Assembly (NCBI GenBank): GCA_002695025.1
Contig: NZNV01000010.1
Location: 62,001 to 126,000, forward strand
Length of the DNA: 64,000 nt
DNA from: Owenweeksia sp.
GTDB lineage: Bacteria > Bacteroidota > Bacteroidia > Flavobacteriales > Schleiferiaceae
Direction of reading: 5' to 3'
Under the pieces are notes generated by a model. The model saw nothing but the letters and a program-made list of their open reading frames with translations. It made no database searches and was not told where the DNA came from. Shown here one piece after another: positions 16,326 through 22,569 of this stretch; position 1 is the stretch's first letter, and every line of letters starts with the position of its first letter. Both the position numbers and the translations under genes were made by a program.

Positions 16326-17801
16326 ATGAAAACTATCCTTTCCTTTGCTGCCCTACTTTGGGCTTATCATCTCCTGTTCTGGCAGGAAGCCCTGGGTATT
16401 AACCTCGTTCTCTTCGGAACAGCATTAATCGCCATTGCTTATTTCAAGAACCGTCCACTTCGCCTGAGGCCAGCACACATTTTCCTGATGGGTCTCACCC
16501 TGGCCAATGCCATAAGCGTACTATGGATAAACACCTTGTTCAGCAACACTCTTTTTGCCTTATTGTCACTGGCTACCTTAACAAGCTTGCACCTTAAACA
16601 TGAGTCGGTGTTTGAAGCTTTTCTCAACGGAGTCTTCAATATATTCAACCCCCGGCAGGGCGTCATACCCGGACTGGCAGGAATGCTACCCACCCCAAAA
16701 ACACGCGGGGCTCTTTACTTACGCCTTAGCGCAGTACCACTGATCATCCTCACCTTTTATATGGTCCTTTTTTCGGCTGGTAATTCCATCTTTAATGCCT
16801 GGACCGAGGAATTCTTTTCCGGGTTCCGAAGGCTTTTTTCCAACTGGACATTTGAGTACACCCTGTTTATACTTCTTGGTGTTCTCATTACGCGCTGGGT
16901 ATGGCGTACCCATTGGGTACGGTTGCTCAGGGTGAAGGCCTACAATGAATGGGAAAGAAAAACCGGCACCCCAAAACCTTTTGTCCTGATGGGCCTCAAA
17001 CATGAGTATCTGACGGCTTTTATGGTACTGGCCTTACTCAACCTGCTTTTCCTTGCCGTAAATATCATCGACATCCGCTGGGTATGGTTCCGGTTTTACG
17101 TACCAGCAGAATTCAGTCTCAAGGATTTTGTACATGAGGGTGTAGGCTGGCTGATCTTTAGTTTACTCGTTTCCATGGGGCTGATCCTTTTCTATTTCCG
17201 GGGCAACCTCAACTTATACCGGGATAACCGCAAGCTGAAAACCCTTGCGTATTTCTGGATCTTTCAAAATGCTATCCTAGCGGTTTCTGTGGTGATCAGA
17301 ACTTTTTATTACATCGGTTTCCACGGCTTGGCACCAGGCCGCATTGGGGTGCTTATTTTCCTCACCATGGTTCTCCTTGGACTGTCTTCACTGGCATGGA
17401 AGATCGGCCATAATTATAACAATGCCTATGTAGTAAGGGTAAACACGCTTTTCGTGATCGGGGTATTGGGTGTATCGTCTCTCTTGCCCTGGAACCATAT
17501 CATCCTACGCCACAACCTCGCCCATGGCAATGTTAATGAGATTGATGTGGACTATTACCTGGACCTGGATCCCCAGGTATACCCATTGGTATACGAAAAC
17601 CTGGATATCATAGAAGCCCAGATCAAAGGGCATCAGAGAAATGCGCGAACCTGGATAAACTATAGTTCCCTTGAGGACTTTAGAGAAGCCTTGAGATGGC
17701 GTTCGGAAGCTTATCTGCGTCAGAGATCAAAGCGTAGCCTGGCTTCCTGGACCTATGCAGATCAAAAGGCTGTGATGGCCCTTACTGCATATACTTATTA
17801 G
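16326..17801 (+). CDS. Polytopic membrane protein, DUF4153/DUF4173-like
   Basis: 491 residues with about a dozen hydrophobic helices and a soluble C-terminal tail of ~90 residues. The tail has HNLAHGNVNEIDVDYYLDLDPQVYPLV, the pattern of the DUF4173 family, in which the last helix is followed by N-x-x-x-IDxxYL and a short soluble end. Function unknown; related genes sometimes sit near sensor or cell-surface genes. It follows a strong terminator by 16 bp, and its stop overlaps that of the convergent flavoprotein by four bases (TTAG). Confidence 0.75.
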   Translation: MKTILSFAALLWAYHLLFWQEALGINLVLFGTALIAIAYFKNRPLRLRPAHIFLMGLTLANAISVLWINTLFSNTLFALLSLATLTSLHLKHESVFEAFLNGVFNIFNPRQGVIPGLAGMLPTPKTRGALYLRLSAVPLIILTFYMVLFSAGNSIFNAWTEEFFSGFRRLFSNWTFEYTLFILLGVLITRWVWRTHWVRLLRVKAYNEWERKTGTPKPFVLMGLKHEYLTAFMVLALLNLLFLAVNIIDIRWVWFRFYVPAEFSLKDFVHEGVGWLIFSLLVSMGLILFYFRGNLNLYRDNRKLKTLAYFWIFQNAILAVSVVIRTFYYIGFHGLAPGRIGVLIFLTMVLLGLSSLAWKIGHNYNNAYVVRVNTLFVIGVLGVSSLLPWNHIILRHNLAHGNVNEIDVDYYLDLDPQVYPLVYENLDIIEAQIKGHQRNARTWINYSSLEDFREALRWRSEAYLRQRSKRSLASWTYADQKAVMALTAYTY

Positions 17802-19243
17802 TGGTACAGGAAACGCAGTATATTTCGGATACCGGGTGATATTCCGCCACTGAACTTTTCCACCAAAGCTATTTTGTGAGCACGCGTTTGGGTGGGATAG
17901 GGGTAGATCTTGTTGAAGATGGCTCCTGCTCCCAGCCCCTGTTGTTTGGCCATAATCAGTTCCTGCACCATTTCTCCGGCATTGGGGGCCACAATGGTGC
18001 CGCCCAGCACTTTGCCATTGCGGGGCTTCCAGCGGCTTTTTTTCAGGAAGAGGATAACGTGTCCGTAACGGTAGTCCGAGGCAATGGCCCGGTCATCACC
18101 TTCCAGTTTAAAATCCACCACTTCATAAGGGAGACTGCGCTTTTCCATTTCTTCCTTGCTGAGGCCAAAAGTGGCTACTTGGGGATCGGTAAACGTGCAC
18201 CAACTGAAATTGTCCAGATTGAACTTTTGCTTAAAGGGCCAGGGTATAAAAAAATTATTGAGTAAAATGGTGGTATGTAACTCAGCACCATGACTAAACA
18301 AAACGTTGTGGGCCGCATCACCGGCAAAAACAATATTCCGGTTACCCTTTGCCCTCAAGTAGTTATCTATCAGTGGCCAGTCTTTTTCCCGGTCCATTTT
18401 CACACCGGCCTTTTCCAGCTGTAAAGTGTCATAGGGGATATCCCGTCCTATGCCCACCAGAACGGCATCACAGGGTATTTCAATTTCTTTCCCTTCCTGA
18501 TTTTTAAGCACGGCCGTCCGGCCATTTCGAAAAGCAACCAACTCCTGTCCCAGCCTGAAATCTATATCTTCCTTTTCCAGCTGTTGTTGCAACAGCGCTG
18601 AAACTTCAGGAAGTTCCTTCTTTAGGATACGGTCATTCTTTTCGAGCACCGTAACCTTTGAACCTAGCCGTGCAAAACACTGGCTCATTTCCAAACCGAT
18701 AGGACCACCCCCGATCACCAGGAAATTCTCCGGAATAAAATCGATGTGGAAGAGGTTCTCGTTGGTGAAAATTTTCATCCTTTCCATGCCCTCCACCTGT
18801 ATCCTGCGTGGTTTGCTACCGGTGGCCACCAGTATTTTCTTCGCCTGGTATTCCTGGCCGTTAACCTCTACCGCATTCCTGCCGGAAAAGGAGGCTTGTC
18901 CAATAAGCACGTCTATCCCCTCCTCTTTTTTCAGGTAGTCAGCACTTTCATGCTTGCGGATAATCTCCTGCCGGCTGTGTACATAGTCCAACACTCTACG
19001 GATGTCCGGCTTCCCGGATAGGGTATATCCGTAGGCTTCACTATCGCTTGCTTTTTTGAGAATGTCGGTAACGTGGATCAGTGCTTTGCTGGGGATGCAA
19101 CCGGAATTAAGGCATTCGCCTCCAAAATTGTCCTTATCCTTATCGATCATCAACACTTTGAAACCGAACTGTGCCATACCAATTCCTACACCCAGTCCAC
19201 CGGAGCCGGCTCCTATTACAATAATGTCATATCCGGTTTTCAT
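17798..19243 (-). CDS. Mercuric-reductase-like pyridine nucleotide-disulfide oxidoreductase
   Basis: 481 residues. FAD-binding IIVIGAGSGGLGVGIG (7-22), redox-active disulfide GGECLNSGCIPSK (C44, C49), NAD(P)-binding VIGGGPIGLE near 175-184, and a C-terminal dimerisation domain with YPYPTQTRAHK. The region before the end matches the MerA-like branch rather than lipoamide dehydrogenase (no HPHPT, no E3 partners nearby). It lacks both the N-terminal metal-binding domain and the C-terminal cysteine pair of true mercuric reductase, so Hg(II) reduction is unlikely. It lies 57 bp downstream of the nucleoside phosphorylase on the same strand. Confidence 0.87.
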   Translation of the reverse strand: MKTGYDIIVIGAGSGGLGVGIGMAQFGFKVLMIDKDKDNFGGECLNSGCIPSKALIHVTDILKKASDSEAYGYTLSGKPDIRRVLDYVHSRQEIIRKHESADYLKKEEGIDVLIGQASFSGRNAVEVNGQEYQAKKILVATGSKPRRIQVEGMERMKIFTNENLFHIDFIPENFLVIGGGPIGLEMSQCFARLGSKVTVLEKNDRILKKELPEVSALLQQQLEKEDIDFRLGQELVAFRNGRTAVLKNQEGKEIEIPCDAVLVGIGRDIPYDTLQLEKAGVKMDREKDWPLIDNYLRAKGNRNIVFAGDAAHNVLFSHGAELHTTILLNNFFIPWPFKQKFNLDNFSWCTFTDPQVATFGLSKEEMEKRSLPYEVVDFKLEGDDRAIASDYRYGHVILFLKKSRWKPRNGKVLGGTIVAPNAGEMVQELIMAKQQGLGAGAIFNKIYPYPTQTRAHKIALVEKFSGGISPGIRNILRFLYH

Positions 19244-19300
19244 ACGCTGGCTTAAACGAAAAATTACCCTTTTACGAAGGGCCTGTACATAGCAAAAGGC

Positions 19301-20113
19301 TTAAAGGCTATCCATCAACTCTACAAAGAGATTGCTGAGCTTATCATCTGCTTCACCGGCTACGGCAATAATTTCTTCAATGTTTACGGGCTGCAGGTTA
19401 TCAGGATCACATTCATCTGTAATAACAGACACCGCAAGGCAGGGAAGGTTCATGTGGTTGGCAATGATCACCTCCGGCACAGTACTCATCCCCACCATAT
19501 CCGCTCCGATGATCTTCAGGTACCGATACTCGGCCCGGGTTTCCAGGTTAGGACCGGTAACGGAAGCATATACACCTTCCCTCACAGGAACCATTTGTCT
19601 ACCGGCTATTTCTTTGAGCTTTGCAATAAGGTCCTTTTTGTAAGGCTCGCTCATATCCGGAAAGCGTGGCCCCAACACTTCCAGGTTAGGACCGGTAAGG
19701 GGATTAAAGGGCTGCAGGTTGATATGATCTTCAATGATCACCAGGTCACCTTTTCGGTACTGGAGGTTTACACCACCGGCCGCATTGGAAAGAAGCAGGG
19801 TTTGAATGCCGAGCATCTTCATCACCCGGATAGGGAAGGTAATTTCCTGCATGGAATGGCCTTCGTAAAAATGAAAGCGGCCCTGCATGGCCACAATTTT
19901 TTTACCGTTCACCTTACCGCAAATGAGGTGACCGGCATGGTACTCCATGGTAGCCACCGGAAAGTGTGGAATGTTCTTATAATTAATGGTTTCGAGTACC
20001 TCTATCTTGTCAATGAGCTTCCCTAAACCCGTGCCCAATACTACACCCACATCGGGATTATCGTACCCTCTGCGTTTAAGGAATGCGGTGGCTTCTTCAA
20101 GTTTATGGATCAT
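19301..20113 (-). CDS. Purine nucleoside phosphorylase (type I, trimeric class)
   Basis: 270 residues. It cleaves purine (deoxy)nucleosides with phosphate to the free base and (deoxy)ribose-1-phosphate. Family motifs are VVLGTGLGKL near residue 24 (phosphate loop), AMQGRFHFYEGH, SNAAGGVN and GVYASVTGPNLETRAEYR, with EVIIANHMNLPCLAVSVITDEC in the C-terminal third. Its start overlaps the stop of the upstream glycosyltransferase-like gene (ATGA), so the two are translationally coupled. This coupling suggests a dedicated job beyond general salvage. Confidence 0.95.
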   Translation of the reverse strand: MIHKLEEATAFLKRRGYDNPDVGVVLGTGLGKLIDKIEVLETINYKNIPHFPVATMEYHAGHLICGKVNGKKIVAMQGRFHFYEGHSMQEITFPIRVMKMLGIQTLLLSNAAGGVNLQYRKGDLVIIEDHINLQPFNPLTGPNLEVLGPRFPDMSEPYKKDLIAKLKEIAGRQMVPVREGVYASVTGPNLETRAEYRYLKIIGADMVGMSTVPEVIIANHMNLPCLAVSVITDECDPDNLQPVNIEEIIAVAGEADDKLSNLFVELMDSL

Positions 20114-20709
20114 AGGTCTGGAAATTTTTTGAGGTCATCAATAGTATCGAGATCAGTTTTTTCAGGCAGCAGTGCCCTGGAAAGCCCTTGTTTTTTCACT
20201 TGTGCCAAAGTTTGGTCAAAAACGCTTTCAGTACTCCAATCTACGTTTTCAAAGATATTCACCTTTTGGGAGAGGCCCAAGAGGTAATAACCACCATCAT
20301 TAGCCGGTCCAATCACCACATTATGGTCTTCAAGCTTTCTAAAGGCTTCTTCAAGGGTTTGCGCATCCATTTCGGGGCAGTCACTACCAATGATCACTAT
20401 TTTCTTATAGCCTTCATCAAAGCCCTTTACAAAGGCTTCGTGCATACGGGCACCCAGATCATTGCCATGCTGGAGCTTCTTCTCAAAATCCTGGGGGGAC
20501 CAATTATCCTCCTGATTGATGAAATCTCCATAATACAATTGCCGGGCAGCATTTACGCCAAGAGCAGCCAAACGGGTTACTTCCAGCAATTTTTTGTAGA
20601 TCTCAACGGCCTGGTGATGCCCCAGATCTTTTCCCAGCCTGGTTTTTACTTTGCCCTGGATAGGATTTTTGATAAAGATCAGCAGTAAGCGGTCGGACAA
20701 TAGCGGCAT
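20110..20709 (-). CDS. TIGR04282/DUF2064-type transferase (rSAM/selenodomain-associated, arsenosugar-type)
   Basis: 199 residues, a CofC/GT-A-like nucleotidyl- or glycosyltransferase fold. Diagnostic motifs are LLIFIKNPIQGKVKTRLGKD (residues 8-27), IIGSDCPEMDA near the middle and GPANDGGYYLLGLS. The family is repeatedly found beside a partner GT2 (TIGR04283) and radical-SAM arsenosugar genes, from family knowledge. Here the partner lies just upstream, and this start codon lies 107 bp inside the partner's 3' end. The substrate is unproven. Confidence 0.88.
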   Translation of the reverse strand: MPLLSDRLLLIFIKNPIQGKVKTRLGKDLGHHQAVEIYKKLLEVTRLAALGVNAARQLYYGDFINQEDNWSPQDFEKKLQHGNDLGARMHEAFVKGFDEGYKKIVIIGSDCPEMDAQTLEEAFRKLEDHNVVIGPANDGGYYLLGLSQKVNIFENVDWSTESVFDQTLAQVKKQGLSRALLPEKTDLDTIDDLKKFPDL

Positions 20710-21421
20710 CTTGAGTATCTAGTTTGGTATCGGATATTTTTTTCTTGTACAGTTTAAGGAGCTGTGCCTGGCTCTTTCCCATTTTATAATTCAGCCACAC
20801 CAGGAAAAAAACCCACTGCAGGCGCAAGGGTCCGTTTTCTATATACTTGCGTGCCGAAGTTACCGTGGTACGGGGAATTATAGTAAAAGACCCGGCATTT
20901 TTTATACGATGAATGATTTCCTGATCTTCCAACATCAGGTGGTCATCGCGGTACCCGCCAATGCTTTTAAAACATTCCCGTTTTATAAAAAGACTTTGGT
21001 CCCCAAAGCGGAAATAATTCACATCAAAGCGGGTAAACCAGGCATTGGCTTTCAGGAACCAGTGATCATTGTCAAAAGAAAGACGGTAGCAGCCGGCATC
21101 AAAGCCTTCATCCAGCTTCTGCATGATATCATGAATAAAACCCTGCGGTGGACGAGTATCGGCATGCAAAAAGTAAAGAGTGTTATTCCCGGCCAGGCTT
21201 GCTCCAAAGTTCAACTGGCTTCCACGCCCCTTATAAGGAGCCTTTACAAAACGCACTCCTCTTTTCAGGACTTCAAAAGGGGTGAGGTCCGTGCTGCCAC
21301 CATCGGAAACAATAATCTCCACCTTAAGGTCTTCGGTCTCGTGCAAGAGAAAATCCAGCAGGGAGCCTATGGTAGCTTCCTCATTAAAGGTGGGAATGAT
21401 GATGGAAAAAGAATATTCCAT
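20603..21421 (-). CDS. TIGR04283-type family 2 glycosyltransferase (rSAM/selenodomain-associated)
   Basis: 272 residues from the ATG at 21421 (MEYSFSIIIPTFNEE); an in-frame ATG at 21457 would add 12 non-conserved residues. GT2 features are IIIPTFNEE, VSDGGSTD, the family-specific GRGSQLNFGA, FLHADTRPP (DxD-like) and FGDQSLFIKRE followed by MLEDQEI. The family usually ends near the helix after LVWLNYKMG. This one carries about 35 further basic residues, which are the part overlapping the next gene by 107 bp. It lies 44 bp after dprA (8 bp if the longer start is used). Confidence 0.87.
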   Translation of the reverse strand: MEYSFSIIIPTFNEEATIGSLLDFLLHETEDLKVEIIVSDGGSTDLTPFEVLKRGVRFVKAPYKGRGSQLNFGASLAGNNTLYFLHADTRPPQGFIHDIMQKLDEGFDAGCYRLSFDNDHWFLKANAWFTRFDVNYFRFGDQSLFIKRECFKSIGGYRDDHLMLEDQEIIHRIKNAGSFTIIPRTTVTSARKYIENGPLRLQWVFFLVWLNYKMGKSQAQLLKLYKKKISDTKLDTQDAAIVRPLTADLYQKSYPGQSKNQAGKRSGASPGR

Positions 21422-21465
21422 TTTAAGGGTATCTTCAATAGTACGCTGAGACAGCATTAAATGTT

Positions 21466-22569
21466 TTAACGGAGCGAATAGACTTTTCCGGGATGGCTCT
21501 GCACCACACCTTTGAGTTCCAGGCTCATTAAAACGGTAAGCACTTTACCAATGGGCCATTCGGCACGGTAACCAATCTTATCCAGCTCCAGTTTACCGTT
21601 GGCCTCATTCAATATACGATGCAGTATTTTCTCCGGTTCATCCATCTCTATAAACAACTGCCTTTGCGGTTGAGCCTTTACTTCTAGCTCCTCCCATCCT
21701 AAAAGGTACTTCAGGTCTTCCACTCCACTTAATAAAGATGCTTTATTGGTCTTAATAAGATAATTGCACCCTTCTGAAAAAGTATCGTCCAACCTGCCCG
21801 GCACGGCAAAAACATCTCGATTATAGTTGTTGGCAATTTCGGCTGTAATAAGGGCACCACCCTTGCGGGCAGCTTCCACCACTATCGTAGCGTCACACAT
21901 TCCGGCAATAATCCGGTTACGTTTGGGAAAATTCTCACGATCCGGGGGAGTGCCACTTATAAACTCACTAAGCAGGCTACCGCCTTCGTCCAGTATTTTT
22001 TGAGCGGTGTTTCTATGCAGGGCAGGATAAACGGTATCCAGTCCATGGCCAAGTATTGCCACGGTGAGAAGCTTATGCTGTAAGGCTGCTTTATGACTGG
22101 CAATGTCAATTCCGTAGGCCAGCCCGCTTACCACCAGGGGTTTAAAAGGCTGCAGACTTTTTATAAAGTTGTTGCAAAAGTTCTTGCCATAGTCGGTAGC
22201 ATTACGCGAGCCCACCATAGCCAGAGCTCTTTGTTCATTAAGCAGGGTTTTTCCTTTCTGGTAGAGCATCACCGGCCCATCCTCACACAGCTTAAGTCGC
22301 CTGGGGTAATTTTTGTCCAGGTAAAAGAGCGGGGTGATGTCATTTTTCAGGATGAAGTCTATCTCCTCTCCGGCCCGATGCAAAACCTCTTGTTCTGAAA
22401 TACTCTTCGCAGACTTGGCACCGATACCCGGTACTTTCTGAAGAAGGCTGCGTTTCTCTTTGAATACGGCCTCGGCACTACCGCAATGGGCCACCAGGCT
22501 CCTGGCATTAATGGTACCCACCCCGGGAATGAGGGTAAGGCCGATACGATATAAAAGATCGCTATTCAC
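21466..22569 (-). CDS. dprA: DNA processing protein DprA
   Basis: Binds incoming single-stranded DNA in natural transformation and loads RecA. 367 residues. An N-terminal helix-hairpin-helix/SAM-like region (about 1-70, with GVGTINARSL and VPGIGAKSAKSI) leads to the Rossmann domain, with AMVGSRNATDYG (117-128), VVSGLAYGIDIASH (146-159) and NRIIAGMCDATIVVEA. A C-terminal winged helix (last ~65 residues) completes it. Together with comEC at the window start it supports competence. Confidence 0.96.
   Translation of the reverse strand: MNSDLLYRIGLTLIPGVGTINARSLVAHCGSAEAVFKEKRSLLQKVPGIGAKSAKSISEQEVLHRAGEEIDFILKNDITPLFYLDKNYPRRLKLCEDGPVMLYQKGKTLLNEQRALAMVGSRNATDYGKNFCNNFIKSLQPFKPLVVSGLAYGIDIASHKAALQHKLLTVAILGHGLDTVYPALHRNTAQKILDEGGSLLSEFISGTPPDRENFPKRNRIIAGMCDATIVVEAARKGGALITAEIANNYNRDVFAVPGRLDDTFSEGCNYLIKTNKASLLSGVEDLKYLLGWEELEVKAQPQRQLFIEMDEPEKILHRILNEANGKLELDKIGYRAEWPIGKVLTVLMSLELKGVVQSHPGKVYSLR

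Follow-up and report, generated by a model that had tools for sequence, protein, structure and literature searches.

The closest described counterpart of the locus analyzed here is the ArsM-ArsS arsenosugar pathway, reportedly described in Synechocystis by Xue in 2019 and Cheng in 2021. Two further systems resemble parts of the locus. In the fluorometabolite and nucleocidin routes, an enzyme of the purine nucleoside phosphorylase (PNP) family acts on nucleosides derived from S-adenosylmethionine (SAM) within a biosynthetic cluster; NucPNP of the nucleocidin route cleaves 5'-methylthioadenosine (MTA) and adenosine (according to an excerpt of PMC8694150), and a section of PMC8102628 refers to a phosphoesterase for 5-fluoro-5-deoxyribose-1-phosphate. 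The third comparison is with the CofC/FbiD-type and 3-phosphoglycerate guanylyltransferases. The locus itself lies in a 64,000-nucleotide stretch of Owenweeksia sp. (assembly GCA_002695025.1, contig NZNV01000010.1, positions 62,001 to 126,000; hereafter the window), part of a 41-contig draft genome that is 99.99% complete (labeled G000). It is a run of four minus-strand genes, encoding a GT2-fold glycosyltransferase of family TIGR04283 (GT2), a DUF2064 protein of family TIGR04282, a PNP, and a flavoprotein. We propose, at a probability of roughly 0.6, that this run is the second half of a split arsenosugar pathway, whose first half, including ArsS, is encoded on another contig of the same genome (C24).

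The genome shares with the ArsM-ArsS pathway the ArsS, TIGR04282, TIGR04283, and TIGR04169 families but differs in that the genes are split over two contigs, the searches found no ArsM, and the later genes include a PNP. Unlike the fluorometabolite and nucleocidin clusters, the window run has no fluorinase, and a nucleotidyltransferase-like protein adjoins the PNP. The likeness to the guanylyltransferases lies in the predicted DUF2064 fold and in weak matches to TIGR03552 and PF01983; the differences are an identity of 15–18% and the substrate proposed for DUF2064, a sugar-1-phosphate.

Three of the four genes are tightly coupled. The GT2 gene (20603-21457, minus strand) scores 202.7 bits with TIGR04283 (cut-off 182) and overlaps by 107 bases the DUF2064 gene (20110-20709, minus strand), which scores 202.9 bits with TIGR04282 (cut-off 134). 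A four-base overlap (ATGA) joins DUF2064 to the PNP gene (19301-20113, minus strand; NF006054 353.5 bits, cut-off 218; TIGR01700 311.8 bits, cut-off 293), and the flavoprotein gene starts 57 bases past the PNP on the same strand, with no overlap. These positions, families, and overlaps agree with a first-pass annotation of the window, except that the GT2 open reading frame extends to 21457; an in-frame ATG at 21421 had been chosen there as the start. Promoter-like sites (13, against 8.3 in shuffled sequence, standard deviation 2.7) and terminator-like sites (4 against 6.2, standard deviation 2.6) were not used as evidence.

The other half of the proposed pathway is found on C24, where ArsS (G000:C24:142520-143431) scores 446.8 bits with TIGR04167 (cut-off 300). 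Upstream of it is a TIGR04169 peroxidase-like gene, and downstream a DUF2064 paralog that reaches 105 bits, below the TIGR04282 cut-off of 134, and has no KTRL loop. Past the paralog lie genes reading as SusC and SusD, a sodium:solute symporter, and a calcineurin-type phosphoesterase. With ArsS on another contig of the same genome, a split pathway is plausible, as the first-pass annotation had suggested when it called for a genome search; the ArsS part of that search succeeded, and the ArsM part did not. ArsS adjoins the equivalent genes in many relatives, but not in this genome, and because of this separation and the missing ArsM we do not class the run as a full ArsM-ArsS cluster. As a side observation, a KTRL-less DUF2064 paralog heads a SusC-SusD-symporter-phosphoesterase-reading module (L001:2460-3176; L003:479-8208), possibly an uptake system, and G186 and G170, two genomes of the same family, have a DUF2064 paralog adjoining a SusC-sized gene (L024, L026).

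The association of the PNP with arsenosugar genes emerges from a survey of ArsS loci. We took the best 80 loci of 588 confirmed matches in an ArsS-alignment scan, nearly all from Bacteroidota; some are cut by contig ends, and 56 extend 9 kb or more to either side. The DUF2064, rhodanese, and SusC labels used here and in the neighborhoods below come from BLAST against reference proteins that we chose. Within ~10 kb of ArsS, PNP is present at 56 loci, DUF2064 at 56, a TIGR04169-like gene at 73, rhodanese at 44, and arsenosugar-type ArsM at 42; GT2 (matches above 100 bits) is found at 24 and SusC-type genes at 15. DUF2064 and PNP occur together at 53 loci, one without the other at 3 and 3, and neither at 21, with corresponding counts of 40, 2, 2, and 12 among the 56 fully flanked loci (Fisher p = 3e-13 for the 80 loci and 1e-8 for the fully flanked 56, treating related genomes as independent). 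PNP immediately follows DUF2064 in 45 of the 56 PNP-bearing loci, and the median gap between them is -1 base over the 53 loci with both. The phosphorylase that the first-pass annotation had linked to such genes is therefore a recurrent ArsS-cluster member.

The same survey reveals that separation of these genes is an ordinary arrangement. We searched 20 genomes again for TIGR04282: 18 without DUF2064 at ArsS, drawn from the 21 loci with neither DUF2064 nor PNP, and those of L112 and L153, where DUF2064 is present at ArsS and one of the two is cut by a contig end. TIGR04282 exceeded its cut-off in 19 of the 20. Splitting of the arsenosugar genes over separate loci is recurrent, since in 15 of the 18 genomes without DUF2064 at ArsS this gene adjoins a PNP at another site; ArsM lies within ~1.5 kb of 9 of these 15 sites, and GT2 within the same distance of 2.

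Gene content across genomes also speaks for the proposed pathway. Of 99 genomes of the class, 7 carry TIGR04283 (E <= 1e-35), as do 7 of 99 from the order; both counts include the window's own genome. In a set of 43 genomes, chosen rather than random, with 13 carrying TIGR04283 and 30 without it, ArsS was found in 15: 11 of the 13 with TIGR04283 versus 4 of the 30 without. TIGR04282 exceeded its cut-off in all 15 ArsS genomes versus 5 of the 28 ArsS-less ones, and the NCBI arsenosugar-type ArsM model NF038099 in 10 of the 43, every one ArsS-positive. As to the remaining five ArsS genomes, G074 has a general ArsM above cut-off, the match in G058 falls below it (188 versus 263 bits), and G000, G075, and G001 gave no general-ArsM match at 1e-30. 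In the regions fetched, PNP stands within the ArsS cluster in G074, G083, G135, G191, G175, G160, G126, G168, and G085. The G160 cluster is a single run of ArsS, a DUF2064 paralog, SusC-type and SusD-type genes, a symporter, a phosphoesterase, DUF2064, PNP, and an ArsM that scores 564 bits with NF038099, with GT2 three further genes past the run. It thus unites what the window's genome splits over two contigs.

The phylogeny of the PNP ties the window copy to these clusters. A tree was built from 36 of 38 PNP matches (G074:C10 and G129 were left out, as they had no locus), in which the window PNP lies in a group of 11 linked copies, that is, copies linked to ArsS or DUF2064, with support of 99/93. 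The next fork (99/95) adds a linked copy of G074 and two tandem PNPs of the ArsS-less G014; the window PNP's group does not include the second PNP copies of G160, G083, and G085. Within the window's own family, all 3 TIGR04283-bearing genomes have a PNP, versus 1 of the 9 others (p = 0.018). Because weakly supported quick trees place neither the GT2 nor the DUF2064 of the window in the main ArsS-linked groups, the PNP is the best-placed member of the run.

Several results count against the split-pathway reading, and the residues of the PNP fall partly on either side. Measured against a human PNP sequence and catalytic positions that we take to be the relevant ones, the window PNP keeps R84, H86, Y88, N115, E201, M219, S220, and T242 and has Thr for S33. 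We counted two further positions in 66 linked PNPs (54 of the 56 from the 80 loci, those longer than 250 residues, plus 12 others) and in 24 unlinked PNPs for comparison. At the position of human Asn243, the window PNP has Asp, as do all 66 linked copies and 23 of the 24 unlinked ones, and this near-universal residue was dropped as a marker of linked PNPs; human PNP carrying Asn243Asp with Glu201Gln cleaves adenosine-type substrates (according to part of PMC2799393), and Glu201 is kept in the window PNP. The position of human His257 is Ile in the window PNP and aliphatic (Ile, Val, or Leu) in every one of the 66 linked copies; the unlinked copies have His in 16 cases and an aliphatic residue in 8. 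His257 contacts O5' in the human enzyme (a passage of PMC5147791), for which it is described as important yet dispensable (a passage of PMC7338719). An aliphatic residue here would suit a 5'-deoxy-5'-substituted adenosine, a fit that is compatible with the proposed substrate without proving it, because the change follows the wider PNP clade and, being shared by 8 of the 24 unlinked copies, is not diagnostic. Moreover, the window PNP is the only PNP of its genome at E <= 1e-30, so it may serve ordinary salvage.

These points lend themselves to a rival account, in which the PNP just recycles by-products such as 5'-deoxyadenosine, MTA, and adenosine, and the glycoside built by DUF2064 and GT2 has nothing to do with it. 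The aliphatic residue would suit 5'-deoxyadenosine or MTA equally well, and 5'-deoxyadenosine, a radical-SAM by-product, is cleaved phosphorolytically by MTA phosphorylase (a section of PMC8102628); G186 and G170, moreover, carry the run without ArsS. We nevertheless regard this account as unlikely, for it leaves unexplained why PNP so often stands next to DUF2064 at ArsS loci (45 of 56).

Alternatively, these three enzymes may make a different 5-substituted riboside, starting for instance from MTA or some other 5'-deoxy-nucleoside, while ArsS merely coexists in the genome. A different glycoside pathway had been raised in the first-pass annotation, and we keep it as an alternative because of G186 and G170. 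In G186 (L023), the order is DprA, GT2, DUF2064, PNP, and FAD oxidoreductase, with a small unlabeled reading frame between DprA and GT2; in the window, the GT2-DUF2064-PNP-FAD oxidoreductase run likewise lies downstream of dprA (21466-22569). G170 (L025) has GT2, DUF2064, and PNP but lacks the flavoprotein, and a 1056-residue gene separates its GT2 from DprA. The GT2-DUF2064-PNP run is not a chance assembly, since both of these genomes repeat its order and one of them, G186, has the flavoprotein as well; all four genes thus co-occur there, and the profiles fit both transferase families, the two matters on which the earlier proposal had been staked. Yet neither genome has an ArsS at E <= 1e-40, and no ArsM was found in either.

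Other results also count against the split-pathway reading. In the window's genome, the best match to the general ArsM model NF008823 reached 52.6 bits (cut-off 263) and that to NF038099 38.3 bits (cut-off 400); the genome's own methyltransferases were considered as candidates, and the best 2 of 11 NF008823 matches resemble other class I methyltransferases. In 5 of the 15 ArsS genomes (G058, G075, G024, G030, and G001), PNP lies outside the ArsS and DUF2064 regions fetched. Quick trees with weak support, built from 12 of the 24 GT2s and about one-fifth of the DUF2064s of the 80 loci, place both window proteins outside the main ArsS-linked groups: the GT2 joins the GT2s from G075, G058, G186, and G170; the DUF2064 falls with its relatives from G186, G170, and G075, near the ArsS-less G009 and G054. 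A different riboside is nonetheless distinctly unlikely in our judgment, as the window PNP clusters among ArsS-linked ones and G160 holds both halves in one run.

The third alternative concerns the chemistry of DUF2064, which the first-pass annotation had taken for a glycosyltransferase, as the NCBIfam name also has it. An AlphaFold2 model of the window protein (predicted local distance difference test score 94.7) has as its top structural match 3cgx, an uncharacterized relative, followed by 3-phosphoglycerate guanylyltransferase (Z 20.3), the probable nucleotidyltransferase MM2497 (Z 19.6), and Rv2983 (Z 17.7), which we take to be FbiD; IspD, TarI, and GlmU are further matches. Glycosyltransferases match the model too, a point against the proposed route, but at lower rank: the first is mannosylglycerate synthase (Z 13.9), and COLGALT1 and ArnC also appear in a second fold list. 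The 20 entries between 3cgx and the first glycosyltransferase are, by title or by known function, nucleotidyltransferases. The predicted fold, nearest to guanylyltransferases, makes a nucleotidyltransferase the likelier identity of DUF2064 despite the glycosyltransferase in its family name, although likeness of fold is no proof of activity. A KTRL loop, GSD, and DGGYYL are conserved in DUF2064 proteins (alignment A3, 21 of 62 candidates plus the window copy). Since the CofC profile TIGR03552 gives 36.4 bits, short of its cut-off of 105, and PF01983 is also weak, the protein would work like CofC rather than be a CofC. That DUF2064 is a true glycosyltransferase, with the PNP product used directly or hydrolyzed first, seems to us very unlikely. 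Most improbable of all is that the PNP carries out arsenolysis with arsenate and thereby feeds into arsenate reduction, in the way reported for the mammalian enzyme in vitro: part of the review PMC12608789 describes arsenate reduction by PNP in vitro and calls its occurrence in vivo unknown, and the pairing with DUF2064 would be left unexplained.

Returning to the split arsenosugar pathway, its proposed course builds on the gene content, linkage, PNP clade, residues, and predicted fold described above, from which we infer all substrates as well as the first step and the last three. First, dimethylarsenite would be supplied by an unrecognized enzyme or imported, the SusC/D-type and symporter genes being our guess at the importer. 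Second, ArsS would adenosylate dimethylarsenite to its product, 5'-deoxy-5'-dimethylarsinoyl-adenosine. Adenosylation of arsenic by a radical SAM enzyme in oxo-arsenosugar biosynthesis is described in a section of a review (PMC12159101). Third, the window PNP would cleave this nucleoside phosphorolytically to adenine and 5-deoxy-5-dimethylarsinoyl-alpha-ribose-1-phosphate. Fourth, DUF2064, acting as a nucleotidyltransferase, would convert the arsenoribose-1-phosphate to a nucleoside diphosphate (NDP)-arsenoribose. Fifth, an inverting GT2, one of the two copies in the genome, would transfer the arsenoribosyl group to an acceptor, yielding a beta-riboside. Natural arsenosugars are beta-ribosides, and the stereochemistry is consistent throughout, from beta-nucleoside to alpha-1-phosphate and, through an inverting GT2, to beta-riboside. 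As a general statement, the odds are in our view even that bacteria make arsenosugars via a sugar nucleotide, with a dedicated PNP followed by a misnamed TIGR04282 enzyme that makes NDP-arsenoribose, the donor for TIGR04283.

The second TIGR04283 copy of the genome (G000:C29:264762, 201 bits) groups in the quick tree with ArsS-linked copies of G030 and G083; it sits divergently beside a gene reading as a YpdA-like flavoprotein (L014:8634-10466). Two plasmid records match the window GT2 at 1e-20, one of them annotated TIGR04283. At the 80 ArsS loci, a DUF547 gene directly neighbors all 24 TIGR04283-like matches above 100 bits (for example, L045:8493-9323, by its Pfam label, and L037:3562-4317), and many loci have, between ArsS and DUF2064, a rhodanese of family NF045521, 'rhoda_near_glyco' (L045:12394-12888).

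The fourth gene of the run (17798-19243, minus strand), for an FAD/NAD(P) disulfide oxidoreductase, is treated here as a neighbor; the evidence does not support its inclusion in the first-pass annotation as a MerA-like core member of the pathway. Mercuric reductase is its best solved-structure match (192.6 bits), level with lipoamide dehydrogenase (192.5 bits), and it carries a CLNSGC redox motif. It lacks, however, the C-terminal cysteine pair that is a feature of MerA, and its 284 bits with TIGR02053 fall below the cut-off of 454; it reaches no family cut-off among the 25 families listed of 99 matched. No window-type copy was found in the 80 ArsS loci, 7 of which hold weak matches of 22–26% identity, and no plasmid match was found at 1e-60; MerA was rejected as its identity on these grounds. 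The close relative in G186 (68% identity) occupies the same gene order. Elsewhere, a relative (43%) immediately precedes TIGR04283 in G075 (L031:7805-10019), and a distant one (26%) immediately follows it in G135 (L042:9737-11827).

Among the open-licence papers listed in our searches, we found none tying a PNP to arsenosugar biosynthesis and no gene assigned to depurination of the arsenic nucleoside; an earlier proposal in Xue 2019 or Cheng 2021 is possible. For an algal arsenolipid, an 'adenosyl nucleosidase' is proposed in a section of a review (PMC10456119). The findings presented here suggest that 'glycosyltransferase', as databases call TIGR04282, may misstate its mechanism. The pairing of PNP with DUF2064 gives two cloneable enzymes and a defined intermediate for the conversion of the ArsS nucleoside to an arsenosugar, which makes the question directly testable, and the window points to the PNP for a late step of arsenosugar formation, the removal of adenine from the arsenic nucleoside.

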